Source: Bryopsis sp. KO-2023 (lineage: Eukaryota; Chlorophyta; Ulvophyceae; Bryopsidales; Bryopsidaceae). Taken from it: a stretch of DNA of 64,000 bases. Positions 1 through 47,743 of this stretch are shown piece after piece (within the stretch, counting starts at the first letter, position 1; each line of letters opens with the position of its first letter). Location of the stretch: positions 5,026,001 to 5,090,000 of the forward strand of contig BSYQ01000007.1 in NCBI GenBank assembly GCA_030272585.1, written 5' to 3'. Under the pieces are notes generated by a model, which did no database searches, was not told where the DNA came from, and saw only the letters and a program-made list of their open reading frames with translations. The translations under genes were made by a program, and so were the position numbers.

Positions 1-1567
1 TCATTAGTTCTATTTCCATAAAGCAGTCTGGTTATCGAAGAACACTGCTTTCCTCCCTTTTCTTGTGAATAAATCGCGTCTTGGTTGACCAGTTCCATTG
101 CACAGTGGTCTTCTCATGGAATGTGCTTCTGCTTTCATTCACCAAAACATCCTGCAAAATTACCCTGGCTCGATGGCATTCTTGATGCAATGCTGGTGTT
201 GGAATCTTGTCAAATTGATTGCAAATGTCCACCAAATGTTCATTTTTTCACCAAAAAACTTCTTTTAGACTGCTTCTTTTGGGCAAAAGAAGTCAAAGTC
301 ACACTCCTCCCATGTCTGTCTTTAAGGGAATCTCAATGTGGCCGACCTCATTGGAAATAATCAGGGTATTGGACCTCATTTGTCCAATATATTATAGGCT
401 AATGGACTACCACCCAGAGAACCAAACAAATTGAACAGAGATGGGGAGGGATAGGAATAGGAAAACAAAACAGAAGGGCTAGGCTGGTGCATTCCAACCG
501 AAACACCTCATAAGATCACCACAATGAATTCTCAGTAAACTTGCAAACTCGATTCTGTTGGAAATTTTAGCTCCATACCAGGTAGCTTTAATAGGTTAAG
601 GTGGTCAGTTGACCCTCCCTTTCCCTATCAAAACCTTGCCACCCAAATACTCAAAGTTTTTTGGAATTATCAGCGTCCAGGCTGAACTTGTGTTGATAAT
701 GTAAGGAGTCAGTGCGAATGAAATGCAATATCATCTATTGGAGTCTTGGGATTATCGGGCAAAAATTATGTCTCATGCATGAGGAAGATTCCAAATGACA
801 ACAGGCATCAAAATCCAAGAAAGACTGCAACAGAATGATTTTAAATTGGTACCCGACCAGTGAGATGAAACTAAACATATGCCATTGACCCCAGCAGACA
901 GATGCGCAATGCGCAGATCCCCCTTGAACAACAATTGCCCAGCCCAGGTCTATGAACATACGGGATTTCCCAAATATGCAAAAAAAAGAAAGAAAGAAAG
1001 AAATGCACATCGCATCAGAGAAAAGAGCTCCACGAACGATGGATGGCAAAAAGTCTCAGCACGTACCCTTGCCTCATATTGTTTATAGATGAGGACAAAA
1101 AACCCAAAAAAAACCACAATACTTCGCTCCACAATATACACTCACCAATCTCTCTTCGCTCAAAGACATAAAACCCACCCAAAAGGATTGGAGCAACCCA
1201 TCTGAGAAACCCCACAACCAAAGATAGCACCCCTACATCTCAAGCCTCGAAATGCTCCCCAACCCAGGCTTGTAATACTTCTCCCCCCCTTGCCCAGTTC
1301 AGGGAAAAGTCCCATCTATGATCCATACATACAATGATACAAAAGAATTTTTCGGATTGAACAAAAAGATACATAAAAACCATAGACAGAAAAAAACATT
1401 AGTCATCACCCCACAGGTTGGATCTTGTTAGCCACCTGTTCTTTCCCCCCCCCCTTTTTTCATAAAGAAAAGCAGCCCGTGCATAAAAACAGCGTAAACA
1501 ACCACAAAGTCAGTGTCCCATTTGTATGAGATCATGCATTTTCAGTAGCTATTTCAATTCTACCCCC
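1..1567. other. No gene recognised; includes 3' flank of DUR3
   Basis: I see no convincing coding exon on either strand here. Short open frames exist but none has recognisable family content or sensible splice sites. The right-hand part (about 1400-1567) must hold the 3' untranslated region of the minus-strand DUR3 gene. A C-run followed by a T-run lies at about 1446-1461. Confidence 0.45.
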
Positions 1568-3829
1568 CTACTCCATCCCCTCCTTCATTTCAACCCCCTC
1601 CTTGAAATTGGCGCCATGTGCAGTGTCATCAACAACTGGAAGGTCAGCTGGAGTCGTCTTGCCAGACACAATGTTGGTCAGGACCTTGCCCAGAGTCTCC
1701 CTTGCTTCCCACAATGGCAAGAAGATGATTGCCACGGAAGCAATGATACCCCAGATGATGGACAGGATCACCCAGAAGGTGAAGTAACCCTTCGAGAAGA
1801 CGCCAGCTGGGAGAGCCAAGAGAGGCCAGAAGATGACCAGCACAGCGGTGGCAAGGCCACCGTATCTAACCGTCCACTTCAGCGCAGCATCCATAGCCTC
1901 AAGGGAGTCTTCTCCCTCCTTAGCCAGGTGGGCATTGGGGTCATCCTCAAGCATGGTGATCTTCTTCGTCTCGCTCCAGTCAGTCACTTCCGGGGAGATC
2001 AGACTGATCACAATGCAGATCACTCCGGAGGAAAGAATGGAAGTCAAGTTGCCCACAAGCATAGGGTAGTTTCCACCCAAGCTGTCCACAGTGACCTCAT
2101 CATACTCCACTTTCGCACGGATGATCCACGCAGCCACACCCAACCACTGGCCGACAACCGCACCAGCAATCGCTCCGTAGCGAGAGCACTTGGACCAGGT
2201 CAGACTGAAGGCAATCGGAATGACAGCAGAACCAATGATCACACCCATCCCAAGGTACACCCAGCCAAGGTTCAACCCGATCTTCTGCAAGATGATGGCC
2301 AGAACTCCCATGAATAGACCCCAGACAACACAGACGATTCGGGAAACATTGATGATGTCCTTTCCGGTGGCGTTGGGCTTCATGTACGTTCTAAAAACGT
2401 CATAGGAAAACAGAGACGACACCGCAATCAACTCGGCAGATCCAGTGGATGTGACAGCCATGAACAACATGACCAGAATCAAGAGAGCACCCCCCTTGCC
2501 CATCAAATGGGTGGCTGTGGCTGGCGGCACCAGACCATCACCAGCCTCTCCAGCCGTCAATGGCAAATCGAGAGCAACAGCACCGAGTCCCAAAGAGGTG
2601 GCCAAAGAGAAGGGAACAGCAAACCAGACAGCACCTCCCAACAAGTACCCCTTGTAGGTGGCCGATGGCTTAGCGGCAATAGCACTCTGCCAGTAGGATT
2701 GATCGACAAACACAGTTCCGAAGTTTCCGACGATGTTGATGATGCCAAAGATCAAACCTCCCTCGCTCAACATGGTGAGGTACGATCCTTCCTGATTCTT
2801 GCTCACAGGGTGCACCGCCTCCACCTTCTTGAGGTTCTCAAACACCTTCGATGGGCTGCCGAGGTCCTCATGACTGACATAGATCTGGAAGATGAAAATC
2901 AACAGAGCCACGAAGATGATGGTGGTGTGAATGTACGATGCCAAGAAGGTCGCCTTCAGCCCACCCGCTGCCGTGTAGAGAATGACTCCGATGGGAATCA
3001 GGATGGCTGCCAAGTTGATGTTCATCCCGGTGAGGGCGTTCACCACAGCAGCTCCACCAAGCAACAGCATGGCTGTCACGATGATATTAGTCAACAGGCA
3101 GAAAATCAGGAAAACCATGTGGGCAACATCCCCCCATCGCGCCCGGATGATCTCCAAGACGGTGTGGCATGTGGGTGCTTTCCTCTTGACTTCGATGGCC
3201 AAAATCCCGAACAGCAACACCTGGACTGTGGCTCCAGCAGCATACCAGAACGGTCCAGAGACACCATACGTGTACGCCACGTTTGAACTCTGCGGAAGGA
3301 CACACGATAAATTCGAAGTGATTCTTTCGGCCCAAATCGAGAAAATGGGAAGAACACATTTTCAAGGTCGCAGCTGGTGGTCATCTCATTCGCTTGTATG
3401 TTGATCTTTTTGGCTGAGTGTCGTGTGTGAGTCAAGGTCCGCGCATGCGGTCCCGATCAAGGTTATGAACAACAAGCAGCGAAAGAAACACCCACGGCGA
3501 CCTGACGCCCAGTTTACCTGAAGCAACGTCGCCGCCCAAGTCCACTGGGATACGATCACGGAGGCGGTGAGTCCAGTCTTGATCGACCTGCCCGCGGTGT
3601 TGAACTGTTCCGACGTGGCAACGGTGCCGCCGAACTTGTAGTCGACGAAGACGACAATCGTCGTGAAGATGCTGAAGAACAGCCCAAAGCCTAAGACAAC
3701 GGCATAGCCAACCCCCACGCCAAAGATGGCTTCTCCGCCGAAGAAGGAGTCGATCACTTCGCCATCTTTGGGTATGTACTCTTCCAAGTTGAAGATATTT
3801 GTGTTGACGTCGCCATCCGACTTCACCAT
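1568..3829 (-). CDS. DUR3: DUR3-type urea/sodium (proton) symporter, SSS family
   Basis: Plasma-membrane high-affinity urea (polyamine) transporter of the sodium:solute symporter family. Two exons are clear: 3829-3518 and 3289-1568, with a 228-bp GT-AG intron. Joined in phase they give 677 residues, close to the family's usual 690-730. The start is the ATG at 3829; the next residues include an acidic leader and the first membrane segment. Family signatures are strong: [39 protein letters not shown] across the splice junction, then [20 protein letters not shown] and an [13 protein letters not shown] loop, which is the DUR3 order. Many hydrophobic helices follow, and the tail is short and charged (ends [11 protein letters not shown]). 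It stands alone, with no nitrogen-assimilation neighbour in the window. The family call is firm; substrate specificity is inferred from family. Confidence 0.95.
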
Positions 3830-4096
3830 GGTTGCCTACAGGACGAGGGGCTTAGACGGAGTTGGGAGGGTATGAAGGGGGGGAAATAAACAAAGCCTCT
3901 TTGCTGCTCAGCTGTGGTGATACATGGAGCGCGAAGGGTCCATGGATGATGGGCCACTGGGGTGCTGGGGGCCCACTGTCGCGTCAAATTAGTAACGTTT
4001 GCGGTCGAGAGAATCATCTGTTTGTGGTGTTTTGGTTGCACACTACGCTGATCGTCTGTATGGCCGCCTCCCCGTTCAAAAACCGAAAGTCCCTTA

Positions 4097-4537
4097 GGGC
4101 CTGTTCAGATTGAACGAACGAACGCGCAAAACCGCCCACGTGCGGCGACACGTCGGAAATTTTACGTGTTTTCGAACGAACGCGCGAACGAATCTGCATC
4201 CCGTTCGTTCGTGTTTTTTGAACGAACGAACGTGCAAATCTTACGTAATTTGGAACGAACGTGCAAACTCGCAGCCAAACCAAAACAGGGCCCCGTTCGC
4301 GCCACCGCAGACGTTCGTCGCGTCTGGAAGTGCGTCAAGCGGCGGCAAGGCACATCCCGCGCGGCCACCGCGAACTTTCGAGTTGACTCACTTCCTGTTA
4401 ATTACGAAAATGATCGCACAGCACCAAAATTAGCGTCATCACACGTTCGTTCGTGTCGTGTCGTTACTTGATCTGAACACGAACGCGCGTTCGTTCGTTC
4501 GTGAGTAAGCGCCCGTTCGTTCAATCTGAACAGCCCC
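4097..4537. mobile_element. PIF/Harbinger-type (Tourist-like) MITE, 441 bp
   Basis: The ends are inverted repeats. The left end reads GGGCCTGTTCAGATTGAACG and the right end is its complement with one mismatch (GGGGCTGTTCAG on the other strand). Both ends are flanked by the trinucleotide TTA (4094-4096 and 4538-4540), the target-site duplication typical of PIF/Harbinger elements. The inside is rich in CGAACGAACG-type repeats on both strands and has no transposase frame. It lies about 265 bp upstream of the DUR3 start codon, so it may sit in that gene's promoter region. Confidence 0.85.
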
Positions 4538-4540
4538 TTA

Positions 4541-5159
4541 CTGGTCGAGCACTGAGTTGAATGACTGAGAATGAGCAATCTTGGAAAAAAGGAGAGATCT
4601 CCTAGATAGGTTTCAGTCGAGTGTAATTTTTTATCCATGTTTTCGACACTTACGCAACAAGGCCTTCGGGTTCCGTGAGGGGGTTCTCGGAATATATTTC
4701 TATAGTGGAGTGCGTTCGGACGAGTCTGGTACTTGACGCAAGGTAGACTCTTTGGTTGCAACCGTGGAACTACACTCTTCTCCAGCTGCGAGTTGTTTTT
4801 GATCGAGATCCCTTCAGCTGCAAACCTGATTTGCTACATGTAATTAACACTTGTCCTTTCCAAGAAAACATACTTCATATCAACTAGTGTGGAAAAGAAT
4901 AGTAGTCTTGGTTGTGGGAACTTGAAGGGACTTTGGTTGGAACAGGAAGACTTTTCACAATATAAGAATGTGAGTTCGATAATTTCCACAAAGTGATAGC
5001 GATCTGCTCAAAAACTGTTTTACAACCCAACCACAACTAACAACGCACATCCAATCCAACTACTATCTGCTCGTGGAAGTGCATTGGAAAAATGCAGATC
5101 TGAAAAAAAAAAAAAAAAAAAAAAAGGGGAGAGGATTTGGTCGCGTGCGTGGGAGTCGT
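4541..5159. other. Spacer between MITE and PPR remnant
   Basis: No gene seen. A run of about 22 A lies at roughly 5103-5125. On the minus strand this follows the last recognisable PPR-gene sequence and could be the trace of a poly-T tract or of a processed copy, but I cannot decide between them. Confidence 0.4.
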
Positions 5160-5225
5160 GGGAGCACCTGAGGGGAGATATCCCATCGGCGGCGTCGCCA
5201 GCTAGCCTCCAGGGCCGACTCCAGA

Positions 5226-5691
5226 CAGAGATAGGACTTGGGCCAAAATTCTGGTCCGGCTACGGTCCGGTCCGGTTACGGTCGAGTTACGGTTCCGTAT
5301 TACGGCCGTAACTCCGTACCGTAACCGGAGTAATATGTTGTTTTTACGGTACGGAACAGGTACGGTATAGCTACGGTAGCCCCTAAATCATCGTGAAGTA
5401 GTGTGGTTCAGTGCTAAAGCGTTAGGCTGTAGTCTGTAAGGTCGTGGGTTCGAATCCCCCTGGGTTCCTTTGGGTTCTCGGGACCCTGCGGGGGTTACTA
5501 TTTACGGTTTACGGTTGGTACGGTGGTTACGGTCGGTACGGTCCGGTACCGGAGCAGTACGGAGTGGTACGGTGGTCCGGTTCCGAGCACGAAAACCACT
5601 CCGGTCCGGACCGTAACTACCGTAACCGTAAGTGACCGGAGTGGGGTTACGGTACGGTTTACGGTACCGTAACCGGAAAGTCCTATCTCTG
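5226..5691 (+). mobile_element. hAT-type MITE with tRNA-like core, copy 1 (466 bp)
   Basis: The 14-bp terminal inverted repeats are perfect: CAGAGATAGGACTT at the left and its complement at the right. They are flanked by an identical 8-bp duplication ACTCCAGA (5218-5225 and 5692-5699). An 8-bp duplication with CAGNG-type ends is the hallmark of the hAT superfamily. The interior is made of degenerate CGGTAC/CGTAAC hexamers around a tRNA-like segment. There is no protein-coding frame, so it is non-autonomous. A second copy in inverted orientation lies at 32976-33440. Confidence 0.93.
5397..5470 (+). other. tRNA-like segment (A and B boxes) inside hAT MITE copy 1
   Basis: The segment has a D-arm/A-box-like stretch (TGGTTCAGTGCTAAAGC) and a perfect B-box T-loop (GGTTCGAATCC) at tRNA-like spacing. 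A T-arm of GTGGG/CCCCC can form with one mismatch, and a D stem of about three pairs is possible. The anticodon stem is poor and I find no seven-pair acceptor stem. I therefore read it as a tRNA-derived RNA polymerase III promoter-like relic and not a functional tRNA gene. It is retained in copy 2. Confidence 0.7.
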
Positions 5692-5804
5692 ACTCCAGAG
5701 TTTCTCTTTCCGCTTGGATTCCAGCGCTGATGCTATCTTCAAAAAGGGACAACGCAATGTCAAATTTGGCGTTTTGGACCACTAGTAAAAAAACGGCCAA
5801 AATA

Positions 5805-6235
5805 CACGGTTTTTTAAGTACTGAAACTACACGGTTTGCTAGGGTTTCGTGTCCCAGGAGCATACACGTTTTGGGAAAGAAAACACGGTTTTTGAGTGTG
5901 CCATGGCAACATACACAGTTTGTGACGTCCGGAACGCTCGCATACACGATTTTGAAAACCGTGTATGTGCATACACGATTTGGGAAAGAAAACACGGTTT
6001 TTGAGTGTGCCATGGCAACATACACGGTTTGTGACGTCCGGAACGCTCGCATACACGATTTTGAAAACTGTGTATCTGCATACACGATTTGGGAAAGAAA
6101 ACACGGTTTTTGAGTGTGCCATGGCAACATACACGGTTTTGAAAACCGTGTATGTGCATACACGATTTGGGAAAGAAAACACGGTTTTTGTAGTGCGACA
6201 TCGAAACATACACGGTTTCACATATCGTACGAAGA
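5805..6235 (+). repeat. Left subterminal array of the CACTA element
   Basis: Many copies of TACACGGTTT or TACACGATTT lie here in both orientations, organised as about three units of roughly 110 bp. Each unit contains the constant block GAGTGTGCCATGGCAAC. Open frames across this array encode only repetitive peptide and are not genes. Confidence 0.9.
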
Positions 6236-6464
6236 GCAATTTCATTGCGATGGAATTATGAAATAATGTACAAAAATACTCACAATTCACAAATTTGTCA
6301 TATTTTGAAACCACCAGGAGTCGGACCTGCAAGCCCCCCATCTGGGGATAATTTCCATATCAATTTATTTACATTAATTAAATTTAATCAAAAAATAATA
6401 ATAATAATAAAAAAAAAATTGAAAAAAATCAAAATGGAATCCACAAAAAAAACTGGAAACTGGG

Positions 6465-40365: not shown

Positions 40366-40574
40366 TGTTGATTGTACGCGATCGAATTAGTGGATCGCAT
40401 ATGGCGTTTCGCATACCTGACAGAAACTAGGGGAACATATAAGGAAAGACCGTGATACTTCGGATAACTTTTTCGTGTAAAAACGATTGGTTCAATGCGT
40501 GTTTCCTAGACTTTCGTAAGAAGTCGGGTCGAACTGTCCCCGACTGAGTCTCAACCAAGGAACACCATTCAACA
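40366..40574 (+). repeat. Left (5') LTR of the outer element
   Basis: 209 bp, TG...CA ends; I see no difference from the right copy. GCTTT precedes it. Confidence 0.92.
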
Positions 40575-40599: not shown

Positions 40600-40835
40600 T
40601 GTTACAAAAACCTCCCCGAACCCTCCCTCGAAGCCTCCTTAACCCATCAAACCCCCACTCATTGATGGGACCCTTGACTAATGTCATTAGGGCGAGGCAC
40701 CAGGGTTCTTGAGCTATAGGATCTCCTATTGGGATCCTATGGACCTTAAGCTCTGACTAGGCTATCACTAGTGCCCATAGCTAGTCTGTAGCTCTAGCTA
40801 GTGCTTACTAGACATCTCGGTGATCACTTGTAACA
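40600..40835 (-). repeat. 3' LTR of the chromovirus
   Basis: 236 bp, reads identically to 46205-46440. Confidence 0.95.
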
Positions 40836-40981
40836 GTGCCCCCTCCTTAGATGTGAAGCCGCCTCGGGTTCACTAGGAATCAAATGCATGATAGGCATCA
40901 TACAAATGATAGTGTCTAGTAGTTACACTATTTTAAGAGAGGAGATCATCATCATCCAGTGGCCAACTGTGATATGATGTC

Positions 40982-42715
40982 TCAAACCTTCGCTTGTGAT
41001 CTCCTTCGGATCGTGCGAGGTGGTACAATCGATTGTGCTTGAGATTGGTGAAACTCGTCAACCAATTCTCGCGCGTGCACGACATTCTGTTCCGGTTCCC
41101 ATGAGTTGTGCTCATGACCGTATCCAACCCATTTCACTAGGAATTCTGTGTAGCATTTCTTGCCCCTACGTCGCTCTCTGCGATCAAGAATGCGCTCAAC
41201 CTCCCATTCCAAGTCACCTTCAATCTCGATAGGTGGCGGGGGTTGCACAGTTCCTTTAGCCCAATATGGCTTCAAGAGTGAAGCATGGAACACCGGATGT
41301 ATGGGCAAAGTATCAGGAAGCTTTATTTTGAAAGCAACCTCATTTATTTGACGCTCGATAGGGAAAGGTCCTACCCATTTCGGCGTTAATTTCCGCGATC
41401 CTGGATGCTTTAACCTTAAGTTCCTTGCATCAAGGAGAACAAGGTCTCCAACCTTGATCTCTACAGGAGCCCGGTGACGATCAGCTTGAGCTTTATAGCG
41501 TTGCTGAGCCGCCTGAAGGCGTTTCTTTGCCTCAACAATCCCTTCTCGGATTTCACTCGTCATTTTCTGAACTTCTGGTACAGCGACCTGCTTTAGTCCT
41601 TTTCTAGGGATCTGAGCAGTCAATGCTGTCCATGGATCTTTTCCATAGTTCAGGAAGAAGGGTGTTTCTCCAGTTGCTTCTGATCTTGAGTTATTTATTG
41701 CAAACTCAACAACCGGTAATAAATCAGCCCAATTTCTTTGGGAAGGCCCCACAAAGTGGCGAAGAGTATCTTGCATCACTTTGTTCATCGCTTCGGTTTG
41801 CCCATCTGTTTCTGGATGATAAGCCGAAGAAAGGGCTTGACTGATTTCCCATTTATCACACAACTCCCTAAAGAAGTGTGAGACAAATCTTGGATCTCTA
41901 TCTGTGACCAATTTCTTTGGCATGCCATGAGCTTTGAAAACATGGTTCACAAAGAGATTTGCTGCTTCAGCTGCACCACAATCCGTTCGAGTTGCAGCGA
42001 GATGTACCATTTTGGTTAACATGTCCACAAAGACAAGGATTGCATCATAACCTGCTCCACTAGATGATGGGAGGTGAGTGACAAAATCCATCGAAACATT
42101 TTCCCATTGTGCATTCGGAATAGACAAGGGTTTTAGGGGACCTTGAGGCTTTCTTCGCCTACCCTTGTGCCTTTGGCATGAATCACATCCTTGCACATAT
42201 GATCTGATATGGTCCTCCATCTGAGGCCACCAGAAATGTCTCTTGATTTTCCGTAAAGTCTTAGCCACACCAAAGTGTCCACTATAGACTGTACTATGGC
42301 AATCATGGATTATATCCTGTCTCAATGTTCCAAAATTTGGTACAGCCAGCACATTACCATTCCACCAGTAACCATCTTGATATTGTAACACCTGGGCAGC
42401 TTCCAGTGTGTCATACCAAGGGTCCTTAGTGTACCCTTCAGTCAACCTATCTATCAACTGGGTATAATAACCCTGAGGCGGAGATGGGTCCACAGAGTCC
42501 CGCCGGCTAGAAACCAAGCCACGTGATCTCCCGGTCTCGCATAATACTCCAATAGATGGTGAGCAAGACGGTATCCGCGACAAGGGATCAGCCACGTTTA
42601 CCCGTCCCGGTCTATACTCCCATTCAAATTGGAATTCATGGAGTAATGCTAACCAGCGAACCTGCCGTCGATTCAAGGTCGATTGGGAATGGAAAAATGT
42701 GTTTGGAGTCCAAAC
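40982..42715 (-). CDS. Chromovirus RNase H end-integrase-chromodomain, part 2
   Basis: This is the continuation of pol, one frame back from part 1. The two frames overlap around 42673-42715. It has no ATG at its beginning, so it depends on frameshifting or was separated by a mutation. Counting from the TTG-encoded residue at 42676: RNase H/linker end (RRQVRWLALLHEF), integrase HHCC finger (H124, H134, C164, C167), catalytic D197, D259 and E295 with exact DX35E spacing, a GPF-type motif (KWVGPFPIERQ, about 434), and a C-terminal chromodomain (about 490-543, FLVKWVGYGHEHNSWEPEQN). The chromodomain places it among chromoviruses, which are thought to target histone-marked chromatin. Confidence 0.92.
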   Translation of the reverse strand, partial: VWTPNTFFHSQSTLNRRQVRWLALLHEFQFEWEYRPGRVNVADPLSRIPSCSPSIGVLCETGRSRGLVSSRRDSVDPSPPQGYYTQLIDRLTEGYTKDPWYDTLEAAQVLQYQDGYWWNGNVLAVPNFGTLRQDIIHDCHSTVYSGHFGVAKTLRKIKRHFWWPQMEDHIRSYVQGCDSCQRHKGRRRKPQGPLKPLSIPNAQWENVSMDFVTHLPSSSGAGYDAILVFVDMLTKMVHLAATRTDCGAAEAANLFVNHVFKAHGMPKKLVTDRDPRFVSHFFRELCDKWEISQALSSAYHPETDGQTEAMNKVMQDTLRHFVGPSQRNWADLLPVVEFAINNSRSEATGETPFFLNYGKDPWTALTAQIPRKGLKQVAVPEVQKMTSEIREGIVEAKKRLQAAQQRYKAQADRHRAPVEIKVGDLVLLDARNLRLKHPGSRKLTPKWVGPFPIERQINEVAFKIKLPDTLPIHPVFHASLLKPYWAKGTVQPPPPIEIEGDLEWEVERILDRRERRRGKKCYTEFLVKWVGYGHEHNSWEPEQNVVHARELVDEFHQSQAQSIVPPRTIRRRSQAKV

Positions 42716-45700
42716 TTTGGACTATGGTCTGTGATTACTTTGAATTTGCTATCAGCCAAGTAGCATCTCCATAGTTGAAGTGCATAAACTGTAGCATACA
42801 TTTCTTGATCACTTGTAGACCAATTCAGTTGTGGGCCGGTAAGCTTTCTACTCTCATATGCAATGGGATGTCCCTCTTGAAGGAGAACTGCCCCTATTGC
42901 ATTGTTAGAAGCATCCGTAATTACTTCAAAGGGTTTGGTAAAATCCGGCATAGCCAAGCAAGGTGCTTCTGTTAATGCCTTCTTCACCCCCTCAAAAGCG
43001 GCCTCACAAGCTGGAGTCCAATCCCATGTCTGTTGCTTTTTAAGCAAATCAGTGAGAGGTGATGCCAAAGAAGAATAACCCTGGACGAACTTACGAAAAT
43101 AATTGGCAAGCCCGAGGAACGATCTCAAATCGTGTACCCCTTGTGGACGAGGCCATTCTCGTCCTTTATTCGTTTTTCGAGGGTCTACAGAGATACCTTT
43201 GCGACCTACAATGAAGCCAAGGTAATGTAACTCTGTTTTGTTAAAGTCACATTTGGACTTCTTAAGGAACAATTTATGTTCTCTTAATCTTTGCATCACG
43301 GCTCGTACATGGGCCACATGTTCCTCTGGTGTTTTTGAGTAAATCAAAATGTCATCAAGGTAAATCAAGACATATTTGCCTATCATTCCTTGAAACACAT
43401 GATTCATCAGTGTTTGAAACACTGCCGGAGCGTTCGTTAATCCCATTGGGAGAACCCGGTACTCAAATAATCCAAAAGGCGTTTTAAAGGCGGTTTTGGG
43501 GATGTCTTCCTCTTTGACTCTCATTTGCCAATAACCGGCTCTGAGGTCAAGAGATGTGAAGCATCTCGCGCCTTGTAACTGATCAAGAAGGTCATCAATC
43601 CGCGGGATCGGGAACTGATTCTTGATAGTTACTTTATTTAAACCCCTATAGTCAATGCACATCCGGAAACCTCCATCCTTTTTAGGAACAAAGAGGACCG
43701 GAGCGCCCCATGGACTAGCACTCGGCTGAATTAATTTTTTGGATAAGAGTTCGGACAACTGGTCCTCTATCTCTTTCCTTTCAGCAGGGGTGTATCTAAA
43801 TAAGGGTCTATTGACCGGACGCGTTCCCTCGACCAAAGGGATATCCGCTGCCACTGCCCTTTCAGGAGGATATTCCGCCAAACCAGAAATAAACAAATCA
43901 TCAAAGTCCTTCAAAAGAGCTTCCATTTGCTCCTCTGGAACTTTGTCTGATTCACTCGTTTCATCCGCCAATTTCAGATGGGATGATATCTCTTCCATCT
44001 CACGAACTACCAACAAAATAGGTTTTATTGAAGTATCTTTCAACTTCCTTTTCACCTGTGGTATCGAGAGTAGAGATGCAACCTGTTTTTGGGGAATATC
44101 TTTACCCGTAGCTTTGGGTAATAATCCCTGACGAAGCAATATTCGTTGATGGGATGAAGTCGTTAAAGCGCACTTCTTTTCAAAGAAGTCTAAAACCGCT
44201 TTACGCTTCTGCAACCACGTATCACCAAGTATAATATCAAACCGATCTAGAAGATCCAACACCAAACAATCAAGCTTCTCTCGATAGCCTTGAATTTTCA
44301 GTGTGATCTTTGTCTCTCCCATTATATCAATATTATCCCCATTTGCCAACTCAGCCTGTGATCCAACGGTAGCTCGATAAGCTATCCCATTTTGTTCACA
44401 AAACTGTTTGGACAGGAAGGCTAATCCTTTAGCTCCTGAGTCCAAAAGACAATGTGCTGGGATTCCACTCAAGAGGCCCTCAAAATGCATTGCAAGCTTA
44501 TCTTGCATGAGAAGCTCTGTTGCTTCCTCTGGCATTTTGGGTACGGGTGGATCATAGAACACATTCACGGGCCAAGGAATGCCAGGAAGTCTTTTCCGAC
44601 TTTTCCCCTTTTTGGCTGTGAATAAAACTGTTCCCTTCTTGTATTGTGCAATCAATCTCATTGAGGTCAAGGCTGGATGCAACTCTTTAGACATTGCTGG
44701 AACAAGAATGCAACAAGAAGTATCATGGGGAGATCTCTTCTTTGTGAGAAGATAGTGATCGAGATATTTGTTGATATCCTTGAAAGGAGGATTCAACCAC
44801 ACATGCTGTCCACCTAAATCTCTTTCCAGAAATTCAGAAGGTGTGCAAAATGTATTACATAAGGCACTGTTCACATCCGAACACCCATCCAACGTAAATA
44901 CGCGGCCTGAAAGTGTCTCAAGACGTTGGAACTCCGCCCTTGTAATTCCTTGGTGAGAATCTTCTCTCTCATCCCTAAATTCCACAGAAGATTTCATTTC
45001 TTCACTTTTTTGACTTCTGGTCAAGATTGGTGCAAGAAAAGCATCACAATCAATGTCCATTGGGTCAATTGTGGAATGTGGATTCAGATTCTTCTGATCT
45101 CTCAATTGTGTCCACTCAAGTGGGACTTCACAAGAACTGAGGTTCACCTTTTTCGACTGACCACACTTATGGCCTCTTGCCCATGGTTCCCCACAGAACC
45201 AACATAAGCCAGCTTTCTTGCGAGCCTCCCTCTCACTCTCGGTCAACCGTACCACCGGTCTTCGTGAGGGCTGAGTGCCACTTTGAGCTTTAAGCCTTGG
45301 TTGCTTAGGCTGATGCCTCTTCTTACTTCCTTTGGCTGGATCTGAGAAGGTAGTTTCCATACCTCTCTTTTTAGCCTTCCGGTCCGTAGTTTTCAACGGA
45401 AAACGAGCATCGTGACCCGGGGCTTTAGCCAGCACATACGTTCGCAAGGCTGAGTAGCTTCTCCATTCCCGACCAAGTGTATCAGTCTCCACTTGTTTGC
45501 ACAAGTGTGGATGGAGACCCCTCAGAAGGATCCAACACTTGGTAGTGTCGTCCATTGGCTCTTTTCGCATTGCTAAGTGAGCATCCACAAAGCGTACGAA
45601 GCCAGGAGTATCGACCTTCTGGTCAATATGATCCTTGCAGGAAGTAAGGGCATTATTTATGGAGTAATCTGTGGCAAGATCTCCAAATGTGCCATCTTCC

Positions 45701-46098
45701 AGGACTTGGCAGAATTTTTCCCAAGATAAAGACCCGTCCTCGAGTTCTTCCTTGGGTACCCTGGCCAATAAATGTCGGCGGGGTTTTGATCCGAGGAAAG
45801 TAGGTGCAATCACTCCCCACTCCTCTCTTGGGACTTTTGCTGCCCTGAAGTACATGGCTAACTCCAAACGGAATTCTGGCCACGGGACTTTGCCCTGGTA
45901 CTTTTCAGGTTTATCAGCAGTCACTCTTCTGGTTTTGCCCAGGCTAGCATCTTTCTCTTCTTTGGTCACTTCAGACCTGAGAGTGCTAGGGGACTGTGGT
46001 CCCTCTGTTCTTTCACTTGGAGAGTCCTCATTGACTTCATCCAGAACAGACCCTTCTTCTAAGGCAAGTACCTCTTGTTCTTCTTGACTCATGGTCAC
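42673..46098 (-). CDS. Chromovirus Gag-methyltransferase-like-protease-RT-RNase H polyprotein, part 1
   Basis: 1,141 codons from the ATG at 46098. Domains in order: acidic N-terminus and Gag (about 60-240); a basic stretch; zinc knuckle CWFCGEPWARGHKC (299-312); a phage Dam-like adenine-methyltransferase-like domain (about 393-520) with FTLDGCSDVNSALC and VWLNPPF (NPPF at 436-439); aspartic protease (LLDSGA at 551-556, ILGDTWL near 623); reverse transcriptase (FRMCIDYRGLNKV, LIYLDDILIY with YLDD at 913-916); start of RNase H (ITDASNNAIGAVLLQEG, Asp 1062). The frame closes at 42673 inside RNase H and the rest of pol is in the -1 frame. The methyltransferase-like block is the feature that sets it apart from ordinary chromoviruses. 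Confidence 0.92.
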   Translation of the reverse strand: MTMSQEEQEVLALEEGSVLDEVNEDSPSERTEGPQSPSTLRSEVTKEEKDASLGKTRRVTADKPEKYQGKVPWPEFRLELAMYFRAAKVPREEWGVIAPTFLGSKPRRHLLARVPKEELEDGSLSWEKFCQVLEDGTFGDLATDYSINNALTSCKDHIDQKVDTPGFVRFVDAHLAMRKEPMDDTTKCWILLRGLHPHLCKQVETDTLGREWRSYSALRTYVLAKAPGHDARFPLKTTDRKAKKRGMETTFSDPAKGSKKRHQPKQPRLKAQSGTQPSRRPVVRLTESEREARKKAGLCWFCGEPWARGHKCGQSKKVNLSSCEVPLEWTQLRDQKNLNPHSTIDPMDIDCDAFLAPILTRSQKSEEMKSSVEFRDEREDSHQGITRAEFQRLETLSGRVFTLDGCSDVNSALCNTFCTPSEFLERDLGGQHVWLNPPFKDINKYLDHYLLTKKRSPHDTSCCILVPAMSKELHPALTSMRLIAQYKKGTVLFTAKKGKSRKRLPGIPWPVNVFYDPPVPKMPEEATELLMQDKLAMHFEGLLSGIPAHCLLDSGAKGLAFLSKQFCEQNGIAYRATVGSQAELANGDNIDIMGETKITLKIQGYREKLDCLVLDLLDRFDIILGDTWLQKRKAVLDFFEKKCALTTSSHQRILLRQGLLPKATGKDIPQKQVASLLSIPQVKRKLKDTSIKPILLVVREMEEISSHLKLADETSESDKVPEEQMEALLKDFDDLFISGLAEYPPERAVAADIPLVEGTRPVNRPLFRYTPAERKEIEDQLSELLSKKLIQPSASPWGAPVLFVPKKDGGFRMCIDYRGLNKVTIKNQFPIPRIDDLLDQLQGARCFTSLDLRAGYWQMRVKEEDIPKTAFKTPFGLFEYRVLPMGLTNAPAVFQTLMNHVFQGMIGKYVLIYLDDILIYSKTPEEHVAHVRAVMQRLREHKLFLKKSKCDFNKTELHYLGFIVGRKGISVDPRKTNKGREWPRPQGVHDLRSFLGLANYFRKFVQGYSSLASPLTDLLKKQQTWDWTPACEAAFEGVKKALTEAPCLAMPDFTKPFEVITDASNNAIGAVLLQEGHPIAYESRKLTGPQLNWSTSDQEMYATVYALQLWRCYLADSKFKVITDHSPKFGLQTHFSIPNRP

Positions 46099-46204
46099 TT
46101 TTTATTTTGGTTTCTTTTAGACTCCTGTTTTGTCCAATTCCGAGTTGTTATGGCGTACTTATGCGTCAAAACGTGACGCGCTCTCTTCCTGCTCCGAAAC
46201 CAAC

Positions 46205-46440
46205 TGTTACAAAAACCTCCCCGAACCCTCCCTCGAAGCCTCCTTAACCCATCAAACCCCCACTCATTGATGGGACCCTTGACTAATGTCATTAGGGCGA
46301 GGCACCAGGGTTCTTGAGCTATAGGATCTCCTATTGGGATCCTATGGACCTTAAGCTCTGACTAGGCTATCACTAGTGCCCATAGCTAGTCTGTAGCTCT
46401 AGCTAGTGCTTACTAGACATCTCGGTGATCACTTGTAACA
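46205..46440 (-). repeat. 5' LTR of the chromovirus
   Basis: 236 bp. Promoter for the minus-strand transcript would be here; no TATA motif stands out. Confidence 0.95.
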
Positions 46441-46792: not shown

Positions 46793-47064
46793 TGCACAGG
46801 CCAGGACAGAACAGACTGTCTGTTCTGTGCACAGGGTCAGACCTGTGCTGCACAGGTGCACAGACCTGCACAGCACAGCACAGAACTGCACAGAATCTGC
46901 ACAGAACTGCACAGAATCTGCACAGATTTTGCACAGAATCTGCACAGAACTGCACAGAAACTGCACAGACCCTGTCTGTGCTGTGCTGTACAGGTCTGTG
47001 CACCTCTGCAGCACAGGTCTGACCCTGTGCACAGAACAGACAGTCTGTTCTGTCCTGTCCTGTG
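46793..47064 (+). repeat. Long hairpin in the outer LTR element
   Basis: Arms of about 88 bp at roughly 46793-46883 and 46976-47064 are nearly perfect reverse complements (about three mismatches noted). They are separated by about 90 bp of repeated CTGCACAGAA/CTGCACAGAATCTG. The arms themselves are built from CTGTGCACAG and GTCCTGTGC words. Transcribed, this would be a strong stem-loop. Confidence 0.85.
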
Positions 47065-47534
47065 CACAGAGGTCTCAGCCCATGTCTGCACCTGACACCA
47101 AAAGAGTCGACCAGATATCACAGTCCCCGCCAGAGAAGAGCGTGGGACGTCAAGAGTGATGCGACTGGGCGGGTGGGCGTTGGGAGTTTGAAAACTGACC
47201 GACAGAGACGTTTTTTGACGACCTGGAATCGACGTATCAACGTAGTCGTGGCCTGAGCGACGCAGGACAAAAAAGTCAGGTTTGGGGTCGAGAGTGGAGT
47301 GAAATTATGATGCGGTACAATGTGGGTTTATTTTTTCCATGCATGGATTTATGGGGTCCTTGTTTTTGGAATGGTCCATCATTGTGTTTTGCGACCTTTT
47401 TGGTTTTTTCTGAAGTTATCACGTGGGAACCGTGAGCGTTGGGAGTTTTTTTGGATTTCGATTATTTTTTTCCTTTCGGGGCTTTCAGGTTTTTTTTTCT
47501 TTCGGAGTTCTACAGTTCCAGGTGGGTGGGCCCA

Positions 47535-47743
47535 TGTTGATTGTACGCGATCGAATTAGTGGATCGCATATGGCGTTTCGCATACCTGACAGAAACTAGG
47601 GGAACATATAAGGAAAGACCGTGATACTTCGGATAACTTTTTCGTGTAAAAACGATTGGTTCAATGCGTGTTTCCTAGACTTTCGTAAGAAGTCGGGTCG
47701 AACTGTCCCCGACTGAGTCTCAACCAAGGAACACCATTCAACA
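47535..47743 (+). repeat. Right (3') LTR of the outer element
   Basis: 209 bp, same sequence as the left copy. GCTTT follows it. Confidence 0.92.

Follow-up and report, generated by a model that had tools for sequence, protein, structure and literature searches.

A phage-type Dam domain at the Gag/Pol border of Ty3 chromoviruses in Bryopsis, present with and without the NPPF tetrad

Introduction

Whether a long terminal repeat (LTR) retrotransposon can carry a phage-type adenine methyltransferase domain between its Gag and its protease, where such a domain would have come from, and what it could do for the element are the questions raised by a Ty3 chromovirus of the green alga Bryopsis sp. 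KO-2023. The copy considered here lies on the minus strand of the window, a stretch of 64,000 nucleotides (assembly GCA_030272585.1, contig BSYQ01000007.1, positions 5,026,001 to 5,090,000). A sequence-only reading of this DNA had placed a Dam-like domain of the PF05869 type at residues 393-520 of the polyprotein, and its coordinates (44922..44539 on the minus strand) were borne out, together with the order zinc knuckle (residues 299-312), Dam (~384-526) and protease (542-649). The blocks that it named are also in place: FTLD at residue 401, NPPF at 436-439, and CCILVPAM within TSCCILVPAM, which starts at residue 460 of the 1141-aa open reading frame (ORF) and is followed by LIAQYKKGTVLF from 482 and LPGIPWPVNVFYDPP from 504.

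42673..46098, minus strand: ORF 1, 1141 aa, with Gag, zinc knuckle, Dam, protease, reverse transcriptase and RNase H
45163..45204, minus strand: Gag zinc knuckle CWFCGEPWARGHKC, residues 299-312 (motif by eye)
44521..44949, minus strand: Dam-like methyltransferase domain, residues ~384-526 (PF05869, profile comparison, model)
44881..44898, minus strand: FTLDGC block, residues 401-406
44782..44793, minus strand: NPPF tetrad, residues 436-439, predicted catalytic, after a strand of the model
44152..44475, minus strand: aspartic protease RVP_2, residues 542-649 (Pfam)

Sequence identity of the domain

The candidate METHYLTRANSFERASE domain was examined as a 169-aa slice (44479-44985), and residues 385-530 were used for protein searches. 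The slice matches PF05869 with 29.4 bits (E 7.6e-7), over the curated cut-off of 28.1, and the family motif (D/N/S)PP(Y/F/W) is present in it as NPPF. In A3, an alignment of the domains of nine relatives, all nine members match both PF05869 (best E 5.1e-9) and the DNA methyltransferase family PHROG 111 (best 6.9e-12) at E up to 1. Compared with nine phage-type Dams, the A3 profile reaches a probability of 99.2% and an E value of 7.8e-20, which stands for one comparison between shallow alignments, and its score of 121.6 was attained in none of 200 column shuffles (best 22.9). Against 5.8 billion proteins, the same profile retrieved a protein named 'phage N-6-adenine-methyltransferase' (E 1.7e-7). 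By these computations, residues ~384-526 are shown to be homologous in sequence to phage-type Dam (PF05869), which agrees with the identity first proposed.

The domain shares with the phage N6-adenine methyltransferases (PF05869/TIGR01712/PHROG 111) an FTLDAC block, NPP[YF] about 30 residues further on, an L-P strand and a late G-x-x-F block. It differs from them in having NPPF, where the phage enzymes have NPPY (nine of nine rows), in a PWPV..YDPP tail in place of their W-[FW]-H and PF-[PS]-S blocks (by eye), and in being part of a polyprotein. Other searches gave less: the slice alone found nothing related in a PDB sequence search (best E 0.55), none of ten pattern stretches from an IMG/VR search with the window domain was confirmed, and the relatives' alignment yielded 22 IMG/VR loci with weak matches (23-34% identity). 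As for the RNA cap enzyme family PCIF1/CAPAM, its profile PF12237 has no match at E<=1 in the window slice and reaches 15.7 bits on one of the related families described below (family B), the cut-off being 31.1.

Predicted structure

An AlphaFold model of the domain (predicted local distance difference test, pLDDT, 79.9; predicted template modelling score, pTM, 0.74) places NPPF at model positions 65-68, directly after a strand (61-64) and leading into a helix (68-84). Over most of its length the model matches solved methyltransferases of the Class I (Rossmann-like) S-adenosylmethionine-dependent fold; the best of them are N6-adenosine methyltransferases, and lower rows include guanine methyltransferases. 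The domain is thus predicted to have a methyltransferase-like fold, and the fold check that had been suggested comes out in its favour, since the model resembles N6-adenine methyltransferases and has NPPF where a predicted strand ends.

The best solved match is PCIF1/CAPAM, which also has an NPPF tetrad; it is a cellular mRNA cap enzyme, and the host has a separate PCIF1 locus. The host PCIF1 exon (contig C1:2009900-2010550) carries AGPPYD in place of the NPPF described for PCIF1, so that the host cap methyltransferase is possibly altered or inactive.

Relatives outside the Bryopsis genome

Residues 385-530 found a single match among the 5.8 billion proteins, P0001 (43% identity), which as a query led to eight proteins, itself included. 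All eight are polyproteins with reverse transcriptase, RNase H, integrase-associated domains and chromodomain; PF05869 is listed in four of them, and they are 36-45% identical to the window domain. A search with the A3 alignment gave 35 proteins, classed by reading into 26 of Ty3 type (P0009-P0034) and nine of phage type (P0035-P0043), three of the latter being named 'phage N-6-adenine-methyltransferase' by their source. For the short proteins the Ty3 label means similarity, to which a listed protease domain is added in P0009, P0033 and P0034. Scanned whole, P0004 scores 29.1 bits with PF05869 (over the cut-off) and P0006 scores 20.0 (under it).

The tetrad is NPP[FY] in 23 of the 34 outside Ty3-type proteins, NAPF in five and something else in six, and NPPY in all nine phage-type proteins. 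Two Ty3-type Dam-protease proteins, P0033 and P0034, have NPHT and NMPE in this position, perhaps as further, perhaps independent, tetrad losses.

Families with and without the tetrad in one genome

At least 150 scored matches to the domain (184 candidates) occur in the 91.1-Mb genome of 28 contigs, and 31 of 49 own-genome matches pass the PF05869 cut-off. Among the matches listed, identity grouping gives five Dam-bearing families: A, to which the window element belongs, B (~66% identical to A), C1, C2 (~76% identical to C1) and D. Family A has many other copies with open frames of ~1700 aa. A single element examined from each of B, C1, C2 and D has its Pfam domains in an unchanged succession up to and including the chromodomain. 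The search for further elements that had been suggested beforehand thus returned four more families here, besides the eight outside polyproteins. PF05869 is seen only in the B representative, under the cut-off; Pfam gives no match at E up to 1 in the C1, C2 and D domains, and NCBIfam none in C1 and only an irrelevant one (E 0.061) in D.

In C1, C2 and D, DSS replaces the DGC/DAC that follows FTL, and DPGR or NPGK stands for NPPF, while HVW, TS-C-L-P, MRLIAQY-KG--LF and Y-D-P are kept. The C/D profile still matches A3 with 100% probability (E 2.7e-44) and the phage-type Dams with 93% (score 47.5, best of 100 shuffles 20.6). Exact motif copies number 158, with NPPF in 58 (32 A, 26 B), DPGR in 67 (C1 and C2) and NPGK in 33 (D); they were counted with exact 26-base patterns (reversed-pattern controls 0), which miss copies with altered motifs and do not reflect the surrounding frame. 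What is new here is this split between NPPF and DPGR/NPGK among chromovirus families of one genome.

Some family D copies are evenly spaced, on contig C6 at 2583402/2595346/2607288 (~11.9 kb) and on contig C5 at 5824829/5835071/5845313 (~10.2 kb); tandem duplication of segments containing entire elements may account for this.

Trees and selection

In a tree of 41 Dam rows, from which P0016, P0018, P0020, P0023, P0027, P0028, P0030, P0031, P0032 and P0034 were left out as fragments, a branch (95/84) sets the Ty3-type domains apart from phage and DIRS sequences. C1, C2 and D group together (100/98), next to A and nested among the NPPF sequences, so that a single loss of the tetrad suffices. The C/D clade recurs (100/99) in a reverse transcriptase tree of 13 elements, where copy L035 stands for A, and the P0001-P0003 clade appears both there (100/100) and in the 41-row Dam tree (99/93); a 13-row Dam tree leaves the position of A open. 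It is thus shown by computation that inheritance of the domain is broadly in step with that of the reverse transcriptase.

Selection was measured over the domain as the ratio of nonsynonymous to synonymous change (dN/dS, Nei-Gojobori). The ratio is 0.166 between the NPPF families A and B (dS 1.6, near saturation) and 0.189 between the motif-less C1 and C2 (dS 0.83), and thus the domain without the motif is constrained about as much as that with NPPF. Within families, it is 0.084 for C1-C1b and 0.454 for D-Db, the latter from few changes. Constraint is tighter in windows around the reverse transcriptase (0.03-0.11 in C1-C2 and A-B) and weaker in those of Gag, which reach 0.27 in C1-C2. Purifying selection on the domain is shown by these computations.

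Origin and known systems

Dam-like domains in retrotransposons have a precedent in DIRS elements, whose methyltransferase is also of the PF05869 type (PMC3783388, PMC5890265). The sequence-only reading did not mention this precedent, and its claim of novelty holds in so far as the open-access literature, which omits most subscription papers, yielded no explicit account of a chromovirus with an adenine methyltransferase. Owing to this scope, and to the Pfam annotations that some relatives already carry, the status of the domain as undescribed is provisional. Captures reported in retrotransposons include adenine methyltransferases in DIRS and cytosine-type ones in Gypsy, DIRS and LINE elements (PMC5890265); a ParB-methyltransferase is reported in Sola DNA transposons (PMC12477816), a methyltransferase appears in a figure legend of PMC11673190, the accessible text of PMC12695648 names no retrotransposon Dam, and PMC12344493 belongs to the same prior art. 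Similar in outline is KnitGypsy-Dnmt3, likewise a Ty3/Gypsy element with a captured DNA methyltransferase under purifying selection (de Mendoza 2018, PMC5890265), although its enzyme is a C5-cytosine DNMT3, structurally unrelated, within the Pol ORF (PMC5890265).

The position of the domain separates the two adenine-type arrangements: in DIRS it follows RNase H, in elements with a tyrosine recombinase and without protease, whereas in the Ty3 elements it precedes the protease, and DDE integrase and chromodomain are present. Three DIRS-like loci of the same genome, L037, L038 and L039, have PF05869 after RNase H (23.4, 21.0 and 18.5 bits, all under the cut-off). RVT_1 also lies in the scanned ORF of L037 and L038, and the ORF next to L039 is tyrosine recombinase-like (by eye); the tetrad position reads HPPW in L037 and otherwise in L038 and L039 (by eye). 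L038 is a palindromic DIRS-like arrangement, with two identical 786-aa frames for reverse transcriptase, RNase H and methyltransferase in inverted orientation, at 964-3321 (+) and 4058-6415 (-) of this locus (contig C4:6185500-6192500).

The Ty3 profile scores phage sequences at 37-53 bits and the DIRS-like ones at 7.6, 3.2 and -1.4, and hhalign gives 99.2% for phage-Ty3, 96.2% for phage-DIRS and 47% for Ty3-DIRS. Since the Ty3 and DIRS domains are each nearer to phage Dam than to each other, two captures are favoured. Borrowing from a DIRS element of the same genome is disfavoured by the profile scores and the tree, in which the DIRS-like rows are three and long-branched and the phage rows are those selected on their score. 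A DIRS element misread as Ty3 was ruled out by the integrase core, the protease, the chromodomain and the place of the methyltransferase before the protease.

Proposed role and rival explanations

It may be proposed that a phage- or bacterium-type Dam was captured by a Ty3 chromovirus lineage at the Gag/Pol border, probably once and probably independently of the DIRS domain. Synthesised as part of Gag-Pol, the domain would enter the particle next to the nucleocapsid, where it could methylate adenine at N6 in the element's own nucleic acid, most likely the new cDNA, thereby protecting it or marking it for expression after integration. Adenine methylation is expected of the NPPF lineages. One sister lineage (C1, C2 and D) would have lost the tetrad once, as tree and rates indicate; because the domain is conserved there without it, it would also have to serve a role independent of NPPF, perhaps in nucleic-acid binding or as a structural part of the Gag-Pol junction. 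By grouping, the host has four MT-A70 loci (ten exon matches), two cytosine DNMT loci (six matches) and one PCIF1 locus, and N6-methyl marks on host nucleic acids are therefore plausible. Taken whole, this reading of a captured Dam, active in adenine methylation in NPPF lineages and with an additional NPPF-free role, stands in our judgement evenly poised between right and wrong.

Several results weigh against it. On the whole 1141-aa ORF PF05869 scores 25.3 bits (E 1.3e-5), under the cut-off of 28.1, and the phage equivalog TIGR01712 scores 22.1, far under its 97.05, so that the domain falls outside that family. The nearest solved structure, PCIF1, is a cap-specific RNA methyltransferase. No fewer than 100 of the 158 exact motif copies are without NPPF; therefore catalysis is not needed for spread. 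The 41-row tree is midpoint-rooted, the tree tool flagged long branches in it (the DIRS rows and P0033), and its phage rows were chosen by score, which favours their near placement; it puts A nearer C/D (97/80), whereas by reverse transcriptase A and B are sisters (98/98). Finally, the dN/dS values are rough, since dS runs from 0.8 to 1.6.

The domain might instead be non-catalytic everywhere, a nucleic-acid-binding module or structural part of Gag-Pol in which the NPPF of A and B is a relic. C1, C2 and D speak for it, since they retain the domain in spite of DPGR/NPGK, with selection comparable to that in A and B, and account for 100 of the 158 copies; so do the other tetrads in six of the 34 outside proteins. 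Retention of NPP[FY] or NAPF in the remaining 28 over deep divergence is unlike a relic, however, and in C/D the FTLD[AG]C block is altered along with NPPF, which leaves this explanation doubtful. The binding module that the sequence-only reading offered as an alternative thus finds support in the sister families C1, C2 and D, though not as drawn for the window element itself. It is also conceivable, if unlikely, that the PF05869 label for a DNA enzyme misleads and that element RNA is N6-adenosine methylated, next to the cap as by PCIF1 or internally, with a proposed benefit for packaging, translation or escape from RNA sensors. The ranking of folds does not tell a DNA from an RNA enzyme, as no PF05869 phage enzyme is described among the 50 matches listed, but the domain is nearer to phage-type Dam (E 7.8e-20) than to the host PCIF1 exon (6.7% probability, single sequence), the phage Dam itself reaching 24% with that exon.

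A bolder proposal, which we regard as improbable, would have active NPPF domains and DPGR/NPGK pseudo-enzymes form a system of two tiers, the dead form being partner or reader; it would pair with the active form in mixed particles, on the model of METTL14 beside METTL3, or bind methylated nucleic acid. If true, this would be a retrotransposon-born writer of adenine methylation with a dedicated non-catalytic subunit. That a Gag-Pol linker should merely mimic a methyltransferase motif, as the whole-ORF Pfam score under the cut-off might hint, has next to no credibility beside the profile, the fold, the shuffles and the conservation across sources; a chance match is ruled out by the profile evidence, with 0 of 200 shuffles.

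To return to the captured Dam, chromoviruses from several sources have it, in one genome abundantly, and its separate acquisition by them suggests that handling or methylating element nucleic acid pays repeatedly. The NPPF and motif-less families of this genome offer a natural comparison for the benefit of a retrotransposon methyltransferase, and the likeness in fold may be relevant to where PCIF1 came from; the accessible part of PMC8868631 reports no prokaryotic homologues of that enzyme.

The window element and its surroundings

The other features of the copy are the following.

40600..46440, minus strand: whole Ty3 chromovirus copy, with a 5-bp target duplication CGCTT at both outer sides
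46205..46440, minus strand: 5' LTR, 236 bp, TGTTAC...GTAACA, 100% identical to the 3' LTR
40600..40835, minus strand: 3' LTR, 236 bp, 100% identical to the 5' LTR
43207..43689, minus strand: reverse transcriptase RVT_1, residues 804-964 (Pfam)
42718..43020, minus strand: RNase H (Pfam)
40982..42676, minus strand: ORF 2, 564 aa, in another frame, with integrase zinc finger, integrase core, SH3 and chromodomain
41045..41206, minus strand: chromodomain (PF00385, E 8.7e-18)

Protease, reverse transcriptase, RNase H, integrase and C-terminal chromodomain in this order, with the LTRs and the 5-bp duplication, identify a Ty3/Gypsy chromovirus. This copy is interrupted, since its coding frame breaks off after RNase H and the integrase ORF (42676..40982) sits in another frame. 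Immediately internal to the 5' LTR, TGGTTTCGGAGC is a candidate tRNA primer site by eye, and a run of purines lies ahead of the 3' LTR. Neither GATC nor any of eleven further palindromic tetramers stands out in number within the element when set against a Markov expectation.

On both sides of the chromovirus lie identical direct repeats of 209 bp (TGTTGA...TCAACA, at 40366-40574 and 47535-47743), the left one followed on its inner side by TGGTTTCGGAGC, the same stretch as in the chromovirus, which thus seems to be nested inside a short LTR element that is probably non-autonomous. The interval from the 5' LTR to the outer repeat also contains a 92-bp inverted repeat (46793-46884 and 46975-47066, 97% complementary, 90 nt apart), whose translation resembles, by eye, the Cys-rich stretch that ends the L038 ORFs.
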